Shown here one piece after another: positions 9,205-60,847 of a stretch of DNA of 64,000 nt. A program made the position numbers and the translations under genes. The notes under the pieces are model-generated. The model had not been told where the DNA came from and searched no databases. It saw only the letters and a list, made by a program, of their open reading frames with translations. Numbering within the stretch: the stretch's first letter is position 1; every line of letters starts with the position of its first letter. The DNA is from Xanthostigma xanthostigma (lineage: Eukaryota; Arthropoda; Insecta; Raphidioptera; Raphidiidae), in assembly GCA_963575645.1 (NCBI GenBank), contig OY754468.1, positions 13,516,001 through 13,580,000 on the forward strand, read 5' to 3'.

Positions 9205-10077
9205 AACCTTCTATATCTTTTGAATGGAGTGTCCGACTGAAACGCGGTTTGCGGCATCTGACGTGATCTTGGTGAACTTAGACTTCCGGAAAATTTGAAA
9301 CGATTCGGCCCAAAAAATTTTGAGAAATCTTAAAAAAACAAGTTTCAAAAATTTTTAAAAATTTGTTTTTGTAAAATATTTTCTAAACTACTAAACCGAT
9401 CAATTCCATAATCTAATCAGCTCTTCTCCTTAACAAACTGCGTCGATTTCCGCAAACCGCATAAAAATCGGTTTATTTGTTCATGAGATACCGTTAACGA
9501 AAAAATCGTAAAAAAGTGTTTTTTTAAAATGACTCTTAAAATTGTTATCAGATCGATTTTTTTGTAATAAATTACTTCCTTAGGCTAAAAAAACTGCGTC
9601 GATCGCCGCAGACCAAATCAAAATTGGTTCATTTGTTCATGAGATAACGTGAACGAAAAATTAGGAAAAAAGTAATTTTTTATAATTACTCGTAAAATTC
9701 TTATCAAATCGATTTTTTTGTAATAATTTGCTTTCTTAGGTTAAAAAAACTGCGTCGATCGCCGCAAACCGCATCAAAATCGGCTCATTTGTTCACGAGA
9801 TATCGTGAACGAAAAATTTGTAAAAAAGTGTTTTTTTAAATTGCTCGTAAAATTCCTATGAGATCGATTTTTCTGTAATAAATTACTTTTTTAGTTTAAA
9901 AAATTGCGTCGACTGTCGCAAATCGCATCAAAATCGGTTCATTTGTTCATGAGATATCGTGAACGAAAATTTCGTAACAAAGTGATTTTTTTTTTGAGCT
10001 CGAAGAGCTAAAAATTAAACTTTTTGCTATATTTTATATATTTTTGAGCGTTTTGAACTCGAAAATAACGGGAAGTT
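8998..10077. mobile_element. Inserted element with an internal 155-bp tandem array
   Basis: Bounded by AACTTCCCG on the left and its complement CGGGAAGTT on the right. It interrupts the mariner-type element. It carries a (TG)n tract (9163-9190), the stretch TATATCTTTTGAATGGAGTG and a tandem array. No open frame of note. Confidence 0.65.
9336..10005. repeat. Tandem repeat, about 155-bp unit, four copies
   Basis: The marker AACTGCGTCGA/AATTGCGTCGA recurs at 9436, 9592, 9748 and 9902 (spacings 156, 156, 154). Each unit contains AAAATCGGTTYATTTGTTC, ATGAGATA and GATCGATTTTT. It lies inside the element at 8998-10077. Confidence 0.85.
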
Positions 10078-13579: not shown

Positions 13580-14640
13580 TCCCTGATTCCCTCTGTCTGT
13601 TTCTCCGCGTTATTCTTCTAAATCACGTAACGGATTTTGAAACGGTTTTCACTAATAGAAAGAGCGATAAACCGGGAATGACTGTGTTTTGTCATCACTA
13701 CATACTATTAACACCAAGTTGCCGTTTCCCTCTGTCCATGGTTTCCGCTTACTTCTTCTAAACAACGCAATGAATTTTGAAACTGTTTTCACTAGCTGAA
13801 AGAGTGATAAACAAGGAAGGTTTGTATATATAGTTTGTAAATATTTTGAACTAAATATGGCTGAATTATAAGAGTGTTTTGTCAAAAAACACTATCACTA
13901 CATAGTACAGGAAAAAAAGTCGCTGTCTGTTTCTTCACTTACTTCTTCTAAACCACGCAACAGATTTCCAAACGGTTTTCACTAACACAAAGAGTGATAA
14001 ACGGGGACGATTTGTGTATATAATTTGTAAATATTTTGTACAATATATGACTGAACTATGACGGTGCTTTGTCATCACTACATACTATTAATACCAAGTT
14101 GCTGTTTCCGTCTGTCCATGGTTTCCGCTTACTTCTTCTAAACAACGCAATGGATTTTGAAACGGTTTTCACTAACAGAAAGAGCGTTTAACGAGGAAGG
14201 TTTGTATATATAATTTGGAAATATTTTGAACTAAATATCGCTGAAATATGACGGTGTTTTTTCAAAAATCACTATCACTGCATATTATAGAATATAAGTC
14301 GCTGTCTGTTTCTCCGCTTACTTTTTCTAAACCAACCAACGGATTTTGAAACAATTTTCACTAACAGAAAGAGCGATAAACGAGGAAGTATTGTGTATAT
14401 AATTTGTAAATATTTTGTACAAAATATGGCTGAACTATGACGGTGTTTTGTCATCACTACATACTATTAATACCAAGTTGCCGTTTCCCTCTGTCCAATG
14501 TCCATGCTTTCCGCTTACTTCTTCTAAACAACGCAATGGATTTTGAAACGGTTTTCACTAATAGAAAGAGCGTTAAATGAGGAAGGTTGTAAATATTTCG
14601 TACTCAATATCGCTGAATACAGGAGTGGTTTATTAAAAAA
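13580..14640. repeat. Alternating ~190-bp tandem array (~380-bp dimeric unit)
   Basis: The marker TTTTCACTA recurs near 13648, 13787, 13977, 14168, 14357 and 14551, about 190 bases apart except for one shortened interval. Two unit types alternate: one with GTCCATGGTTTCCGCTTACT..AAACAACGCAATG, the other with CTGTTTCTCCGCTTACT..AAACCACGCAAC. This indicates a dimer as the amplified unit. A single monomer in reverse orientation lies at 45125-45340. Confidence 0.8.
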
Positions 14641-19174: not shown

Positions 19175-19469
19175 AACCAGTGGGAGTATATGCCCAAGTA
19201 ATTCAAGAATTACAAGGCGCGAAATTTTACGTCATATACCCCGGTGTTTTGTTTGAAAATCGGTGTATATATAATTATATTTAACGACACTTGGAGAATA
19301 ATATAGTATAACTTAATTTAATTATTCTAAGAAAAAAATAACAGTTGAAAATAATGAAACACAGAAAGGAAAATATAATTTTAATAATTTCATGGTTCTC
19401 TATGTAATATGTTATTGTGTCATGCAAAAATTAAACCTAACTAACATCTTCAGAACAAAAGATCAACAG

Positions 19470-19960
19470 ATTTTTTTTCAAAATATTTCTGAAATTATGA
19501 GTTTAGAAAAAAAATTTCATAGCTTTCTTGTAAAAACAGATAGAAAAATAAACCGTTATGAAAAGTACCCAATTATTATATAAAAACAACTTTATAACAT
19601 ATATGTGCCGACTTTAGCTCAAAGAATTTTTTACAAAACTTTCTTTAAAATAAAATAATAAAACATTATAAAAAGTACACCATTATTATATAAAAAACAA
19701 CGATGGCATGTATCTCTTTTGCGCATGCGCCGATTTTTCCCAAAAATTATACAAAACTCTTGTAAAAATAGATCGAATAATAAACAGTTATAAAAAGTAT
19801 ACCATTGTTATATACAAACAACTTTATAACTTATACCTCTTTTGCGCAAGCGCCGACTTTCCCTCAAAAAACATTTTACAAAACTTTCTTGTAAAGTAGA
19901 ATAATAAAACATTATAAAAAGTACACCATTATTATATAAAAAAATTGGATGTCTGTAAAG
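19470..19960 (+). repeat. Imperfect ~120-bp units containing GCGCATGCGCCG
   Basis: The word ATTATTATAT or its variant recurs at 19572, 19682, 19804 and 19928 (110-124 apart). Each unit has ACAAAACTTTCTTGTAAA, ATAATAAAC.GTTAT, AAAGTAYACCATTATTATAT and GCGCATGCGCCGA. These units share ancestry with the central part of family B. Confidence 0.7.
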
Positions 19961-20127
19961 TCGGTTTACGGACGATAGTTTTACGTGATAACGTATTCCG
20001 CTCGAATATCATGTTTAATAATACATTACTGCGCTCTCGCTTGCGCGCACAGGGACAGGCGGAACGTTACACTTTTTCGTGCGTGCAGCTGGTGTTTCAT
20101 CAATTTATAAGACGTTATCACGTCAAA

Positions 20128-22578
20128 AACTTAGTCCACCATCTTTAGAAGTCCGCCATATTGGATTTAGAGTGACGTCACTTTATTTTTCGAGTTATTC
20201 TCAGCAAGCCCTTTCATTTGATACCCATATTGTAGGAAAGCATAATAAAATTAGTCCGCCATCTTTAGAAGTCCGCCATATTGGATTTAGAGTGACGTCA
20301 CTTTATTTTTCGAGTTATTCTCAGCAAGCCCTTTCATTTGATACCCATATTGTAGGAAAGCATAATAAAATAAGTCCGCCATCTTTAGAAGTCCGCCATA
20401 TTGGATTTAAAGTGACGTTACTTTATTTTTCGAGTTATTCTCAGCAAGCCCTTTCATTTGATACCCATATTGTAGGAAAGCATAATAAAATTAGTCCGCC
20501 ATCTTTAGAAGTCCGCCATATTGGATTTAGAGTGACGTCACTTTATGTTTCGAGTCATTCTCAGTAAGCCCTTTCATTTGATACCCATATTGTAGGAAAG
20601 CATAATAAAATTAGTGCGCCATCTTTAGAAGTCCGCCATATTGGATTTATAGTGACGTAACTTTATTTTTCGAGTTATTCTCAGCAAGCCCTTTCATTTG
20701 ATACCCATATTGTAGGAAAGCATGATAAAATTAGTCCGCCATCTTTAGAAGTCCGCCATATTTGATTTAGAGTGACGTCACATTATTTTTCAAGTTATTT
20801 TCAGCAAGCCCTTTCATTTGATACCCATATTGTAGGAAAGCATAAAAAACTTAGTCCGCCATCTTTAAAAGTCTGCCATATTGGTTTTAGACTGACGTCA
20901 CTTTATTTTTCGAGTTAATCTTAGCAAGCCCTTTCATTTGATACCCATATTGTAGGAAAGCATAATAACATTAGTCCGCCATCTTTAGAAGTCCGCCATA
21001 TTGGATTTAGAGTGACGTAACTTTATTTTTCGAGTTATTCTCAGCAAGCCCTTTCATTTGATACCCATATTGTTGGAAAGCATAATAAAATTACTCCGCC
21101 ATCTTTAGAAGTTCGCCATAATGGATTTAGAGTGACGTCACTTTATGATTCGAGTTATTCTCAGCAAGCCCTTTCATTTGATACCCATATTGTAGGAAAG
21201 CATAATAACATTAGTCCGCCATCTTTAGAAGTCCGCCATATTGGATTTAGAGTGACGTCACTTTATTTTTCGAGTTATTCTCAGCAAGCTCTTTCATTTG
21301 ATACCCATATTGTAGGAAAGCATAATAAAATTAGTCCGCCATCTTTAGAAGTCCGCCATATTGGATTTAGAGTGACGTCACTTCATTTTTCGAGTTATTC
21401 TCAGCAAGCCCTTTCATTTGATACCCATATTGTTGGAAAGCATAATAAAATTAGTCAGCCATCTTTAGAAGTCCGCCATATTGGATTTAGAGTGACGTCA
21501 CTTTATGTTTCGAGTTATTCTCAGTAAGCCCTTTCATTTGATACCCATATTGTAGGAAAGCATAATAAAATTAGTCCGCCATCTTTAGAAGTCCGCCATA
21601 TTGGATTTATAGTGACGTAATTATTTTTCGAGTTATTTTCAGCAAGCCCTTTCATTTGATACCCATATTGTAGGAAAGCATAATAAAATTAGTCCGCCAT
21701 CTTTAGAAGTCCGCCATATTTGATTTAGAGTGACGTCACTTTATTTTTCAAGTTATTTTCAGCAAGCCCTTTCATTTGATACCCATATTGTAGGAAAGCA
21801 TAAAAAACTTAGTCCGCCATCTTTAAAAGTCCGCCATATTGGTTTTTGACTGACGTCACTTTATTTTTCGAGTTAATCTCAGCAAGCCCTTTCATTTGAT
21901 ACCCATATTGTAGGAAAGCATAATAAAATTAGTCCGCCATCTTTAGAAGTCCGCCATATTGGATTTAGAGTGACGTAACTTTATTTTTCGAGTTATTCTC
22001 AGCAAGCCCTTTCATTTGATACCCATATGGTTGGAAAGCATAATAAAATTAGTCCGCCATCTTTAGAAGTTCGCCATATTGGATTTAGAGTGTCGTCACT
22101 TTATGATTCGAGTTATTCTCAGCAAGCCCTTTCATTTGATACCCATATTGTAGGAAAGCATAATAACATTAGTCCGCCATCTTTAGAAGTCCGCCATATT
22201 GGATTTAGAGTGACGTCACTTTATTTTTCGAGTTATTCTCAGCAAGCTCTTTCATTTGATACCCATATTGTAGGAAAGCATAATAAAATTAGTCCGCCAT
22301 CTTTAGAAGTCCGCCATATTGGATTTAGAGTGACGTCACTTCATTTTTCGAGTTATTCTCAGCAAGCCCTTTCATTTGATACCCATATTGTTGGAAAGCA
22401 TAATAAAATTAGTCCGCCATCTTTAGAAGTCCGCCATATTGGATTTAGAGTGACGTCACTTTATTTTTCGAGTTATTCTCAGCAAGCCCTTTCATTTGAT
22501 ACCCATATTGTAGGAAAGCATAATAAAATTAGTCCGCCATCTTTAGAAGTCCGCCATATTGGATTTAGAGTGACGTCA
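20128..22578 (+). repeat. Main 120-bp satellite array, about 20 units
   Basis: Unit of exactly 120 bp in most copies: AGTCCGCCATCTTTAGAAGT, CCGCCATATTGGATTTAGAG, TGACGTCACTTTATTTTTCG, AGTTATTCTCAGCAAGCCC, TTTCATTTGATACCCATATTG, TAGGAAAGCATAATAAAATT. Because 120 is divisible by 3, long repetitive open frames of 40-residue periods occur; these are incidental. Diagnostic variants recur 960 bases apart, indicating an eight-unit higher-order repeat. Confidence 0.97.
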
Positions 22579-23460
22579 CCGATTTTCCCCAAAAAAATTA
22601 CAAAAATTTCTAGTAAAAATAGATAGAGTAAAAACCGTCTTAAAAACTATATTATTATTATATAAAACAGCATTATAAGAGATATATTCTTTTACGCATG
22701 CGCCGATGTTCCCCAAAAACAATAGGCCAATTCATATTTGCATATCAAACATCCTCCCAAAATTTGGTTTCAATCCGCTCATCCTTGGTGTCGGAATGAT
22801 AAGAAATGTCAAAAGTGACGTTTGCTTCTGTCAAAGTATTAAGTTCTAATAATTAGTTATTCAAATTGTTAACTTAGAAGGCGTTGCATTTCAGAAATAT
22901 TCGAAACGGCATCCGTTTTTGAACAAATGCTATCTTTTAATTTCATTATTGTCATAAATAAAATTATCGACCAATTTTATTTTAAGACTGAACATACGCA
23001 ATACTTATATTACCATGTTATGCCGTGCAACAGAGAGAGATAACCGAAAGATGTTTGCTATCGGTTATATCAGATTGAATTTATTTCTATATAAATGTGT
23101 ATAAAAAAACTGATTGGGCGAATTCTATTGTACGAAATTTATGTAAAATTTTCTCCTCTTTCGTTTAAGACAGGTTTCGAACCGATCTGATTTAAATTGA
23201 GCGAGTTATAAGCGAAAAACTTCGTTTTTTCTAAATTGCTCCCCTCTGGAGCAAAAATTCAAAAATCGGGCGACGTTAGGATCTAAGTTACCCGGAGACA
23301 AATCGAACAAAAAAAAGTTTTTTAAAATCGGTTAAGTCGTTTGGGCTGTACGCTGGATACAAAATTCGGGATCACAGATTCACAGATTCACAGATTCACA
23401 GATTCACAGACAAAGCGAGTACATATAGGCGCTTTAGCTTACGCTATTCGCGCCTAAAAA
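22579..23460 (+). mobile_element. Right module of E120-A
   Basis: Continues the GCGCATGCGCCGAT units, then CCAAAATTTGGTTTCAATCC (shared with family B), GTCAAAAGTGACGTTTGC, TCTCCTCTTTCGTTTAAGAC, a four-fold ACAGATTC repeat and the folding terminus. Alignable with 59630-60543. Confidence 0.75.
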
Positions 23461-28674: not shown

Positions 28675-29352
28675 TAAAAAAATTGGTTGTCTGTAATGTC
28701 GGTTTACGGACGATAGTTTTACGTGATAACGTATTCCGTAATACATAACCTAAACCTCCCAAAATTTGGTTTCAATCCGCTTATCCTTGGTGTCGGAATG
28801 ATCAGAAATGTCAAAAGTGACGTTTGCAACTGTCAAAGTATTATGTTCTAATAATAATTAGTTATTCCAATACTTAACTTAGAAGGCGTTGCATTTCACA
28901 AAATACTAATGTCAAAAAATTGAATTAAACATTAGAAATGCAGCCGTTTTCATGTTAAGACAAGACATACGTTATCTTCTAATTTTCATGTACGGCAAAC
29001 AAAGACGACCGACCGCGTCGCGCCATGCATTAGACAACATTGCATTTATACAGCTATTTTTCTATATAAATTTGTATAAAAAAACTGTTTAGGCAAATTC
29101 TGTTATACGAAATCTATGTAAAATGTTCTCCTCTTTCGTTTAAGACTGGTTTCAAACCGATCTGATTTAAATTGAGCGAGAAATTAGCAAAAAGCACGCA
29201 CAGGGTCAGGCGGAACGTTACGCGTTACGCGTTACGAACGTTAGGAACGTTAGGATTTAGGAACGTTACACTTTTTCGTGCATGCAGCCGGTGTTTTATC
29301 AATTTATAAGATTGGTGATTCATCAATTTATAAGACGTTATCACGTCAAAAA
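28675..29352 (+). mobile_element. Rearranged E120 fragment without the satellite
   Basis: 28680-28737 matches the block before the satellite in E120-A (GTCGGTTTACGGACGATAGT); 28757-29190 matches the right module (AATTTGGTTTCAATCCGC, AAGTGACGTTTGCAACTGTC, CTCCTCTTTCGTTTAAGAC). At 29195-29352 the left block resumes (CAGGGTCAGGCGGAACGTTA, ATAAGACGTTATCACGTCAA). The order left-right-left with no 120-bp units points to template switching or circle-type rearrangement. Confidence 0.75.
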
Positions 29353-56564: not shown

Positions 56565-57580
56565 ACTTAACAAAACATTCTTGAAAAAATAAATGGAATA
56601 ATTTAACCGTATGAAACGTATACCATTATTATATAAAAACAACGTTATAGCTTATATCTCTTTTGCGCATGTGCTGATTTTCAAACAATAGGGCGTATCA
56701 AACATCCTCCCAAAATTTGGTTTTAATCTGTTCATCTGTTTGACTTGTTCACAGTTAAACAGACGAACAGACAAACAAACAGACGCACAGAGTTTTTCCA
56801 AAAATATGTTTTTTGATTTCGAGGGTCCTCAAAAGGAAAAAAATATTCTAAAATTTTGAAAAGTGAATTCTGACCTAAACTAGTACCATTCCCTGCTTGT
56901 GGGTTGGAATTGTAAAATGGAGTACCTACTATTAAACTAACCAGGAGACAATTACTAACTAATTACTGGATTACGAACACATTCTTACCTATTTAAAAAA
57001 GAAGCATCTTTGAAGTGTATCATCTGTGATATTCGAAAAGATATTCAGTAAGTATCTACTAGTAGACATTCCTTTATACGACTTCTACAGGGCAGCAACT
57101 AGCAACAGAGCTAATAGCAAACCATTTTGAATAGTTCTGAAAACAATATGAACCAGTGGAAGTATATGCCCAAGTAATTCAAGAATTACAAGGCGCGAAA
57201 TTTTACAGCATATACCCCGGTGTTTTGTTTGAAAATCGGTGTATATATTTAACGACACTTGGAGCTTAATAATATAACTTAATTTACTTAATCTAAGAAA
57301 AAAATAACAGTTGAAAATAATGAAACACAGAAAGGAAAAAAATAATTTTAATAATTTCATGGTTCTCTATGTAATATGTTATTATGTCATGCAAAAATTA
57401 AACAAAGAACTACCTAACTAACATCTTCAGAACAAAAGAACAACAGATTTTTTTTAAAAATATTTCTTAAATTATGAGTTTAGAAAAAAAATTCATAACT
57501 TTCTTGTAAAAACAGATAGAAAAATAAACAGTTATGAAAACTACCCAATTATTATATAAAAACAACGTTAAAGCATATAT

Positions 57581-57759
57581 GCAGTGAAACGCGATGGGGC
57601 AGAGGTGGAGTTTTAAAAAAAATAATTCCGGGGTGAACGATAAACGGGTATGCGAATTGTAATTCCGGGGTAAACGATAAAGGGGTATGCGAATTGTCTC
57701 GCAGTGAAACGGGAAGGGTCAAATGTGGAGTTTTTAAAAAAACAATTCCGGGGTAAAAA
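57581..57759 (+). repeat. Second unit type with exact 120-bp spacing
   Basis: GCAGTGAAACG occurs at 57581 and 57701, exactly 120 bases apart. Each is followed by GTGGAGTTTTTAAAAAAA and CAATTCCGGGGT-type words. The word AATTCCGGGGTRAACGATAA also repeats within the unit. Confidence 0.8.
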
Positions 57760-59109
57760 ACTAAGTCCACCATCTTTAGAAGTCCGCCATATTGAATTTA
57801 GAATGACGTCACTGTATTTTTCGAGTTGTTCTCAGCAAGCCCTTTCATTTGATACCCATATTGTAGGAAAGCATAAAAAACTTAGTCCGCCATATTGAAT
57901 TTAGAGTAACGTCACTTTTATTTCGAGTTGTTTTCAGTTAGCCCTTTTATTTGATACCCATATTGTAGGAAAGCATAAAAAACTTAATCCGCCATCTTTA
58001 GAAGTCCGCCATATTAGATTTAGACTGACGTCACTTTTTTTTTCGAGTTATTCTCAGCAAGCCCTTTCATTTATACCCATATTGTAGGAAAGCATAATAA
58101 AATTAGCCCGCCATCTTTAGAAGTCCGCCATATTGGATTTAGAGTGACGTCACTTTATTTTTCGAGTTATTCTCAGCAAGCTCTTTCATTTGATACCCAT
58201 ATTGTAGGAAAGCATAATAAAATTAGTCCGCCATCTTTAGAAGTCCACCATATTTGATTTAGAGTGACGTCACTTTATTTTTTGAGTTAGTTTCAGTAAG
58301 CCCTTTCATTTGATACCCATATTGTAGGAAAGCATAAAAAACTTAGTCCGCCATCTTTAGAAGTCCGCCATATTTGATTTAGAGTCACGTCACTTTTTTT
58401 GAGTTAGTTTCAGTAAGCCCTTTCATTTGATACCCATATTGTAGGAAAGCATAAAAAACTTAATCCGCCATCTTTAGAAGTCCGCCATATTGAATTAAGA
58501 GTGACGTCACTTTATTTTTCGAGTTATTCTCAGCAAGCCCTTTCATTTATACCCATATTGTAGGAAAGCATAATAAAAATTAGCCCGCCATCTTTAGAAG
58601 TCCGCCATATTGGATTTAGAGTGACGTCACTTTATTTTTCGAGTTATTCTCAGCAAGCTCTTTCATTTGATACCCATATTGTAGGAAAGCATAATAAAAT
58701 TAGTCCGCCATCTTTAGAAGTCCGCCATATTTGATTTAGAGTGACGTCACTTTATTTTTTGAGTTAGTTTCAGTAAGCCCTTTCATTTGATACCCATATT
58801 GTAGGAAAGCATAAAAAACTTAGTCCGCCATCTTTAGAAGTCCGCCATATTTGATTTAGAGTGACGTCACTTTTTTTTTGAGTTAGTTTCAGTAAGCCCT
58901 TTCATTTGATATCCATATTGTAGGAAAGCATAAAAAACTTAATCCGCCATCTTTAGAAGTCCGCCATATTGAATTTAGAGTGACGTCACTTTATTTTTCG
59001 AGTTATTCTCAGCAAGCCTTTTCATTTGATACCCATATTGTAGGAAAGCATAATAAAATTAGTCCGCCATATTTAGAAGTCCGCCATATTGGATTTAGAG
59101 TGACGTCAC
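57760..59109 (+). repeat. 120-bp satellite array in E120-B, about 11 units
   Basis: Same unit as at 20128-22578, with more length variants (114-121 bases). Variants beginning TAATCCGCCATCTTTAGAAG recur at about 57985, 58460 and 58940, a four-unit (~478-base) higher-order repeat different from the eight-unit one in E120-A. Confidence 0.95.
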
Positions 59110-59335
59110 ACAGCTAACCATGCATTGTCATCCAAACTAAATGTGTATACAAATCTTCATTTCAATCGGTTGAAGATATCTGCTTCAAAATTACCGAAGG
59201 CATTCTAGTCAGTCACTTAGTAATTCAGTCGCTCACTTATTAATTTAGTCACCCAACTATTATTTTAATATCTCAAATTATTGAAACAGTACCTATCTCA
59301 TCATCAGTCACCAAGTTTTTTTTTATTCGATCGTT
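59110..59335. other. E120-B-specific insert
   Basis: Contains GAAGATATCTGCTTCAAAAT and several imperfect AGTCACTTAGTAATTCAGTC-like repeats. No counterpart in E120-A. Confidence 0.5.
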
Positions 59336-60847
59336 TTATAATTCTCCTATAAAAAACAACTATGGCATGTACCTATCTCTTTTGCGCATGCGCCGATTTT
59401 TCCCAAAAATTATACAAAACTCTTGAAAAAATAGATCGAATAAAAAACCGTTATGAAAAGTATACCATTCTTATATACAAACAACTTTATAACTTATACT
59501 TCTTCTGCGCATGCGCCGACTTTCCCTCAAAAAAAAACATTTTACAAAACTGTCTTGTAAAATAGAATAAAAAACTATTATTAAAAGTACACCGCTATTA
59601 TTAAAAAAAAAAAACAACGACGGCATTTATCTCTTGCGCATGCGCCGATTTTCCCCAAAAAATTTACAAAAATTTCTATTAAAAATAGATAGAAGAATAA
59701 ACCGTTTTAAAAACTATATTATATTTTTTATTATATAAAACAACATTATAAGAGATATATTCTTTTACGCATGCGCCGATGTTCCCCAAAAACAATAGGC
59801 CACTTCATATTTGCATATCAAACATCCTACCAAAATTTGGTTTTAATCCGATCATCCGTGGTGTCAAAATGGTAAAAAATGTCAAAAGTGACGTTTGCAT
59901 CTGTCAAAGTAGGTATTACCTATGTTCTAATAATTAGTTATTCAAATTGTTAACTCAGAAGGCATTGCATTTCACAAATATTCGAAACGGCATCCGTTTT
60001 TGAACAAATGCTATCTTTTAATTTCATTATTGTAATAAATAATATTATCGACCAATTTTATTTGAAGACAGAACATACGCAATTTTTAAATTGCCATGTT
60101 AAACCGTGCAACAGAGAGAGATAACCGAAAGATGTTTGCCATCGGTTATATCAAATTGAATTTATTTCTATATAAATGTGTATAAAAAAACTGTTTGGGC
60201 ATTTTCTGTTGTACGAAACTTATGTAAAATTTTCTCCTCTTTCGTTTAAGACAGGTTTCGAGCCGATCGGATTTAAAATGAGCGAGCTATAAGCAAAAAA
60301 CTTCGTTTTTCCTAAATTTCTCCCCTCTGGGGCCAAAATTCAAAAATCGGGCGACGTTAGGATCTAAGTTACCCGGAGACGAATCGATCAAAAAAAAGTT
60401 TTTTAAAATCGGTTAAGGCGTTTGGGCTGTACGCGTGACACAAAAAATGGGACGTACAGATTCACAGATTCACAGATTCACAGACGTACAGACAAAGCGA
60501 GTACATATAGGCGCTTTAGCTTACGCTATTCGCGCCTAAAAAATGATTAATATTTATCGAGATTTCCCGATTACTGTATAAAACATAATAACGATCTGTT
60601 CAAAATATAACATTAAAAGACCAGCACGAACCTGCACCCTGCATGATTTCATATACAGACCAGCAACTTTTAGTGCAGATTCCGTGTGCGGCAGACAATT
60701 AATAGTTTTCAACATAGGCGTGTGTAATTGACGATGTTGTGTGAAGAAGAGAGGGAGGAAATAAAGATGGTTTTAGGCTCCCCCTATCGATGGCAAGAGG
60801 AAATCATGTGATGAATTTCATTATTTATTTCCTGAATTATTATCAAA

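Follow-up and report, generated by a model that had tools for sequence, protein, structure and literature searches.

The window analyzed here, a 64,000-nucleotide stretch of the Xanthostigma xanthostigma genome, contains two copies, A and B, of an outer element that we call Y and that resembles a Helentron-associated interspersed element (HINE). Both hold a tandem array with a 120-bp unit, together with modules of a second element, X. The features are as follows, with coordinates counted from the first letter of the window.

19175–23460, minus strand (its own 5′-to-3′ direction): copy A of Y, with sharp ends common to copies that have other flanks
23427–23460, minus strand: 5′ end of Y, comprising a T run, a subterminal inverted repeat and a GGCGC...GCGCC hairpin (fold z −2.03)
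23372–23410 in A and 60456–60484 in B, no strand assigned: 8-bp microsatellite near the 5′ end of Y (tandem-repeat call)
20127–22579, no strand assigned: array of A, 20 units with an 8-unit higher-order pattern (TRF and unit comparison), entering Y at TGACGTCAC
19944–20129, minus strand: X left module in A, made of the X 3′ end and an inner X 5′ end (end comparison)
19607–19942, no strand assigned: 124-bp repeats of Y, the site of X entry (TRF and copy comparison)
19214–19223, no strand assigned: 3′ subterminal inverted repeat of Y, 39 nt from the 3′ end
19198–19213, no strand assigned: 3′ palindrome of Y, GTAATTC-AA-GAATTAC, with 7-bp arms, 23 nt from the 3′ end
28682–29352, minus strand: X copy with both ends and without the 120-bp array (end comparison)
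57151–60542, minus strand: copy B of Y, from a different subfamily (sharp ends; flank comparison with A)
57781–59109, no strand assigned: array of B (TRF extent), 11 units with a 4-unit higher-order pattern (TRF and unit comparison)
59098–59129, no strand assigned: start of the X right array flank, kept in B (flank comparison)

Other tandem arrays are present in the window. Positions 9435–9992 hold 3.6 units of a 156-bp repeat, another dispersed array; the DNA around it is about 93% similar to the left flank of locus L039 and to a stretch inside the Y copy of L042. A 190/380-bp array at 13678–14596 shows partial similarity to the L041 left flank.

The termini of Y are sharp in both copies (left AACCAGTGG..., right ...CGCGCCTAAAAA). 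Homology between copies sets in at AACCAGTGG and stops after TAAAAA, and the DNA beyond both ends of A and B is unrelated. The original prediction that the two copies have the same ends was confirmed, except that the end of B had been placed one base too far, at 60543 instead of 60542. The window has two matches to the right block; 100 shuffles gave none. When the genome (623 Mb, 28 contigs) was searched by exact patterns, the left block (a 17-mer) was found 987 times and the right block (a 28-mer) 1192 times, with no occurrence of either reversed control. In the first 38.95 Mb of contig C1, the 91 left blocks include 60 that are followed on their own strand, within 12 kb, by a right block, at a median span of 3829 bp; for the same 91 blocks, the opposite-strand control gave 2 pairs and the wrong-side control 1. 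The other 31 lack an exact right block inside 12 kb, which counts against a simple picture of the element.

For closer comparison, we used 22 Y copies selected for having both blocks, namely A, B and 20 further copies, the latter being every left/right pair among the listed matches on C1 up to 15.3 Mb. The array is present in 22 of 22, in a single orientation, with 6–36 units (mean 18.1). With its defined ends, about a thousand copies and this constant cargo, Y is a non-autonomous mobile element, as had been proposed. A and B represent separate subfamilies, the right 720 bp being 93% and the left 360 bp 96% alike. Among 30 right-block loci, units lie within 1.5 kb inward in 18 and are absent there in 12; L011, L014 and L018, which belong to these 12, have units deeper inward, as does L013 (the same locus as L042). 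Five loci (L017, L021, L029, L031 and L034) have the 5′ terminal block of Y, yet Y interior sequence is scarce or missing from them; these are other families with the same end as Y.

Target sites bear on how Y spread. L044, a B-like copy, and L047, an A-like copy, are inserted at the identical position of a dispersed repeat whose pattern occurs 6300 times in the genome; this repeat, the target of two Y copies, is also seen at C1:574250–574600 (L063). The filled site reads CAAAATT-[AACC...TAAAAA]-CGAATTG, and the empty form in most listed places of the pattern is CAAAATT-AGAAA-CGAATTG. There is no target duplication, and the break falls inside the A run. Filled sites are without the G found in the commonest empty form, which counts against our account; an empty form with A in place of that G is also among the listed places. 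Two stretches of the window are diverged empty relatives of L055 and L052 and are consistent with a T-rich target without duplication. L034 and L056 were considered as empty sites for L054 and set aside, as their right sides diverge.

Segmental duplication or ectopic recombination in place of transposition might be read from the roughly 100 bp of flank that L044 and L047 have in common on both sides. That flank is itself the dispersed repeat, however, and differs between the two loci at several bases. The remaining flanks shown are unrelated, with homology stopping at the element ends, and an empty site of X, described below, is clean. We therefore regard this alternative as highly improbable. 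Two outcomes that had been named as damaging to the original prediction do not occur: the flanking blocks do co-occur with the array, and homology does not extend past the ends.

In minus-strand orientation, Y is built like the HINEs described in the consulted passages of PMC4067079. Its order is TTTTT, a subterminal inverted repeat, the 8-bp microsatellite, central repeats, the matching subterminal repeat, the palindrome and 23 nt to the end. The subterminal inverted repeat, AGGCGCGAA, lies 5 nt from the 5′ end, with its inverse 39 nt from the 3′ end, and its GGCGC pairs with a GCGCC further inward to form the 5′ hairpin. In the mite HINEs of those passages, the corresponding distances are 2–4 nt (5′) and 38–60 nt (3′), so the 5′ distance of Y differs slightly from that of the mite families. 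All 22 copies have the 3′ palindrome at the same offset; its fold is weak against shuffles (z −0.97 in A and −1.47 in B), which counts against our account. A search of the 22 copies with two Helentron proteins (tblastn) gave no match at E up to 1, as expected of a HINE, which lacks coding capacity. A canonical Helitron, with 5′ TC, 3′ CTRR and insertion between A and T, was ruled out, as the ends of Y are TTTTTAGGCGCG and CCACTGGTT and its insertion sites are A/T runs. So was a MITE of a cut-and-paste transposon, there being no target duplication beyond the ambiguity of the T run.

The arrays themselves agree with the original description of about 20 and 11 units with higher-order repeats of eight and four. 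TRF, run with a longest period of 500, reports 120 bp and 20.5 units in A, and for B it lists periods of 120, 239 and 477. Unit identity in A peaks at lag 8 (mean 0.977, against 0.932–0.940 at lags 1–7) and in B at lag 4 (mean 0.944, against 0.892–0.909 at lags 1–3). Further Y copies have different higher-order lags or none.

Across the genome, an exact 37-base unit core occurs 8087 times (reversed control, 0), or 8.2 cores per left block (8087/987), compared with 8.6 per copy in the 22-copy sample. Unit counts thus match element counts, and a large free satellite outside the elements is not needed to explain the exact cores in the assembled DNA. The first 100 cores listed, from C1 0.15–6.43 Mb, form 18 unit clusters, all of which tie to X or Y modules. 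No long array outside the elements was seen among exact unit cores in the assembly. The idea that such an element seeds satellite DNA is accordingly borne out for dispersed short arrays, and not for long free arrays.

Arrays change length faster than the adjoining DNA. When 210 copy pairs were compared over the right 720 bp (omitting L047, the right end of which falls in another locus), 11 pairs were at least 99.5% identical, and 10 of these 11 differed in unit number, by 1–12 units; the mean difference over the 11 is 5.3. Flank identity and unit difference are uncorrelated (rho −0.02, from 210 pairs that are non-independent). For unit order, 13 of the 18 pairs compared within groups outperformed every one of 20 shuffles and 5 did not, with alignment costs of 76 for L040/L058 (shuffles at least 153) and 25 for B/L042 (shuffles at least 58). 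L048/L045, at 173 against a shuffled 171, is one of the five. Neither of two between-group pairs beat the shuffles (A/B, 121 against 117).

The 4-unit pattern of B is common to L042, save for one extra unit, so this pattern predates the move of B, or the split between B and L042. Because A and B belong to different subfamilies, their comparison alone is no proof of independent expansion; the within-subfamily pairs do show it. This part of the original prediction thus holds for unit number, in which nearly all near-identical pairs differ, and fails for unit order, which is often inherited. Since tandem arrays can collapse in assembly, the differences in unit number might be attributed to assembly errors. 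We find this quite unlikely, as the units carry ordered variants, and L040/L058 and B/L042 align far below their shuffled minima while differing by whole-unit blocks.

The satellite is carried by X, a second HINE-like family that is far commoner than Y. Its left end, ATTGGTTGTCTGTAAAGTCGG..., has 20,094 exact occurrences in the genome, compared with 565 for the X–array junction, so the array appears to be absent from most X copies. Array-free X copies with both ends occur at L006 as well as in the window. T runs and subterminal inverted repeats are present in X too, as is a weak 3′ palindrome; against shuffles, its folds reach z −1.40 (3′) and about −2 (5′), the weak 3′ fold again counting against our account. 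An X copy near a Helentron (L059) is missing from the paralogue L072, where a bare T run is found, without duplication. X thus shares with HINEs the subterminal inverted repeats, the palindrome and the T-rich target without duplication. A strand bias of X was entertained and dropped: the listed places are plus-only after C1:547 kb, yet an exact minus copy that they omit lies at about 579.5 kb (L001), so this listing is incomplete and is used here for its totals alone.

Twelve of the 18 unit clusters adjoin a Y block. Four of the other six were fetched, and the remaining two adjoin exact X–array junctions. All four fetched arrays, which lack Y ends, carry the same array flanks as Y copies, and each has one X left end, ATTGGTTGTCTGTAAAGTCGG..., and two X right ends, ...GACGTTATCACGTC-A-run. 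On its own strand, array-bearing X therefore has two 5′ ends and one 3′ end, with the satellite between the 5′ ends. Among 44 exact X–array junctions in the first 38.9 Mb of C1, both Y blocks accompany 24, a single block accompanies 4 and no block accompanies 16; the junction at 3903756, among the four, was assigned by proximity only. The original prediction had treated the satellite as Y's own. Instead, it came with X, which carries the array alone at all four solo loci.

How the two elements came together is preserved at L041, where a complete X lies within a Y 124-bp repeat. The filled repeat reads CCGAATTTCCCTC-A run-[X]-A run-CATTTTACAAATC, and an unfilled one in A reads CCGACTTTCCCTC-AAAAAA-CATTTTACAAAAC. 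A and B are eroded versions of an L041-type nest. Twelve of the 22 Y copies, including A, keep the left side of X, and the array enters Y at TGACGTCAC-CGATTTT. Nine, including B, keep the X right array flank and have lost the X left end. Both X ends occur in just 1 of the 22, which counts against our account. The entry points of X in the Y repeat differ between A and L041, suggesting more than one entry. In B, the left side of X is replaced by 37-bp repeats (window 57623–57697), relatives of which are found, in one orientation or the other, at L040, L042, L043, L049, L053, L056 and L058.

The opposite direction of transfer was also weighed, in which the array was originally Y's, X obtained it from Y by recombination and the solo X arrays are derived. 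Exchange between the families does happen, as X and Y have a common internal module (by eye, the X copy at 28682–29352 resembles the right part of Y). Both array flanks stand together in 4 of 4 solo X copies, however, and in only 1 of 22 Y copies, and the Y 124-bp repeat is also seen unfilled. Transfer from Y to X is therefore unlikely.

The account we consider likely is that Y is a HINE, that an array-bearing, HINE-like X became nested in it, and that the composite spread as Y and was then eroded, with its array turning over in whole-unit blocks. Y would be a non-autonomous transposon of the rolling-circle Helentron type, presumably moved by a Helentron Rep-helicase-endonuclease. Read-through copying may have captured the satellite that, in some X copies, is now enclosed by a pair of X 5′ ends; such a capture would be expected to leave X with two 5′ ends and a single 3′ end. 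Array-bearing X would then have entered the A/T runs of Y 124-bp repeats, the whole nest being visible in L041. The composite would have propagated as Y, deletions taking the right side of X in A-type copies and the left side in B-type copies. Unit number would shift in whole-unit blocks while the flanks stay almost constant, by either unequal exchange or rolling-circle slippage.

A broader reading is possible but doubtful: that satellites are relayed among rolling-circle families as these nest in one another's A/T-rich repeats, which would generate the mosaic of ends and arrays already known from HINEs, and that unit number is re-set at or near transposition and does not drift with age. The suggestion of re-setting comes from the lack of correlation between flank identity and unit difference in the non-independent pairs above.

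A profile search for the autonomous partner placed Helitron_like_N at 89 sites in the genome. The Rep-helicase encoded at L059 is 2391 aa long and has a UCH domain, and that at L068 is 2241 aa long; both show a sub-threshold endonuclease match. The Rep-helicase of L060 has an OTU domain and no endonuclease match. Y or X ends enclosing the Helentron frame were absent at L059 (14.4 kb) and L068 (12.4 kb), at L060 (9.9 kb read, with 2.0 kb before and 0.3 kb after the frame), and in the two flanks read of a fourth Helentron (L071 and L072). The Helentron stretches read thus contain no autonomous element with Y or X ends, which counts against our account. The X beside L059 was rejected as a terminus of that Helentron, being an insertion missing from L072, as was a Y piece beside L068, which has the opposite orientation. 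An 8-unit, 265-bp tandem array lies 3′ of the Helentron frame with the UCH protease domain (L059/L062, C1:60102500–60116900). Elsewhere in the genome, 34 open frames of 1498–1620 aa score above 200 bits for Helitron_like_N, suggesting a recently active Helitron family. A PF03260 search gave a single match, weak and partial (E 2.4e-4).

Several published systems resemble this one. In the parts of PMC4067079 consulted, HINE/DINE-1 elements likewise have subterminal inverted repeats, a 5′ inverted repeat, a 3′ palindrome, a T-rich target and a microsatellite, and some copies have central repeats; the sequence is different, and a partner Helentron is proven there and not for Y or X. Cg_HINE of the Pacific oyster (PMC7492417), as far as the available portion describes it, comprises non-autonomous Helentrons with subterminal inverted repeats, a microsatellite, a 3′ palindrome and an oligo-T target without duplication, and shares with Y a central satellite-like array and mosaic pairing of ends and arrays. 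For that family, recombination or cut-and-replace was proposed, and the word "nested" is absent from the same portion of text, whereas in the present case the array belongs to X, which is inserted into Y, and one copy retains the complete nest. Xiong et al. 2016, as described in the accessible sections of PMC12628747, reported Helitron arrays that combine multiple 5′ ends with a single 3′ end. Array-bearing X is alike in its two 5′ ends and one 3′ end and unlike in that its satellite lies between the 5′ ends and its units are not truncated element copies. The same sections describe shuffled oyster loci, arrays common to Helitron elements and elements within others. Our literature search, with subscription papers largely outside its reach, returned no account of Y or of a hand-over with the whole nest preserved. 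Satellite-carrying HINEs and mosaic pairings are thus known already; the clean nested hand-over is new.

Together, these findings present a clear case of how a satellite-like repeat is dispersed: it rides an abundant transposon and is passed to another by nested insertion. Satellite length changes while the flanks of the carrier hardly differ. As the roughly one thousand copies fall into several subfamilies, this genome allows a direct measurement of when arrays change in relation to transposition.
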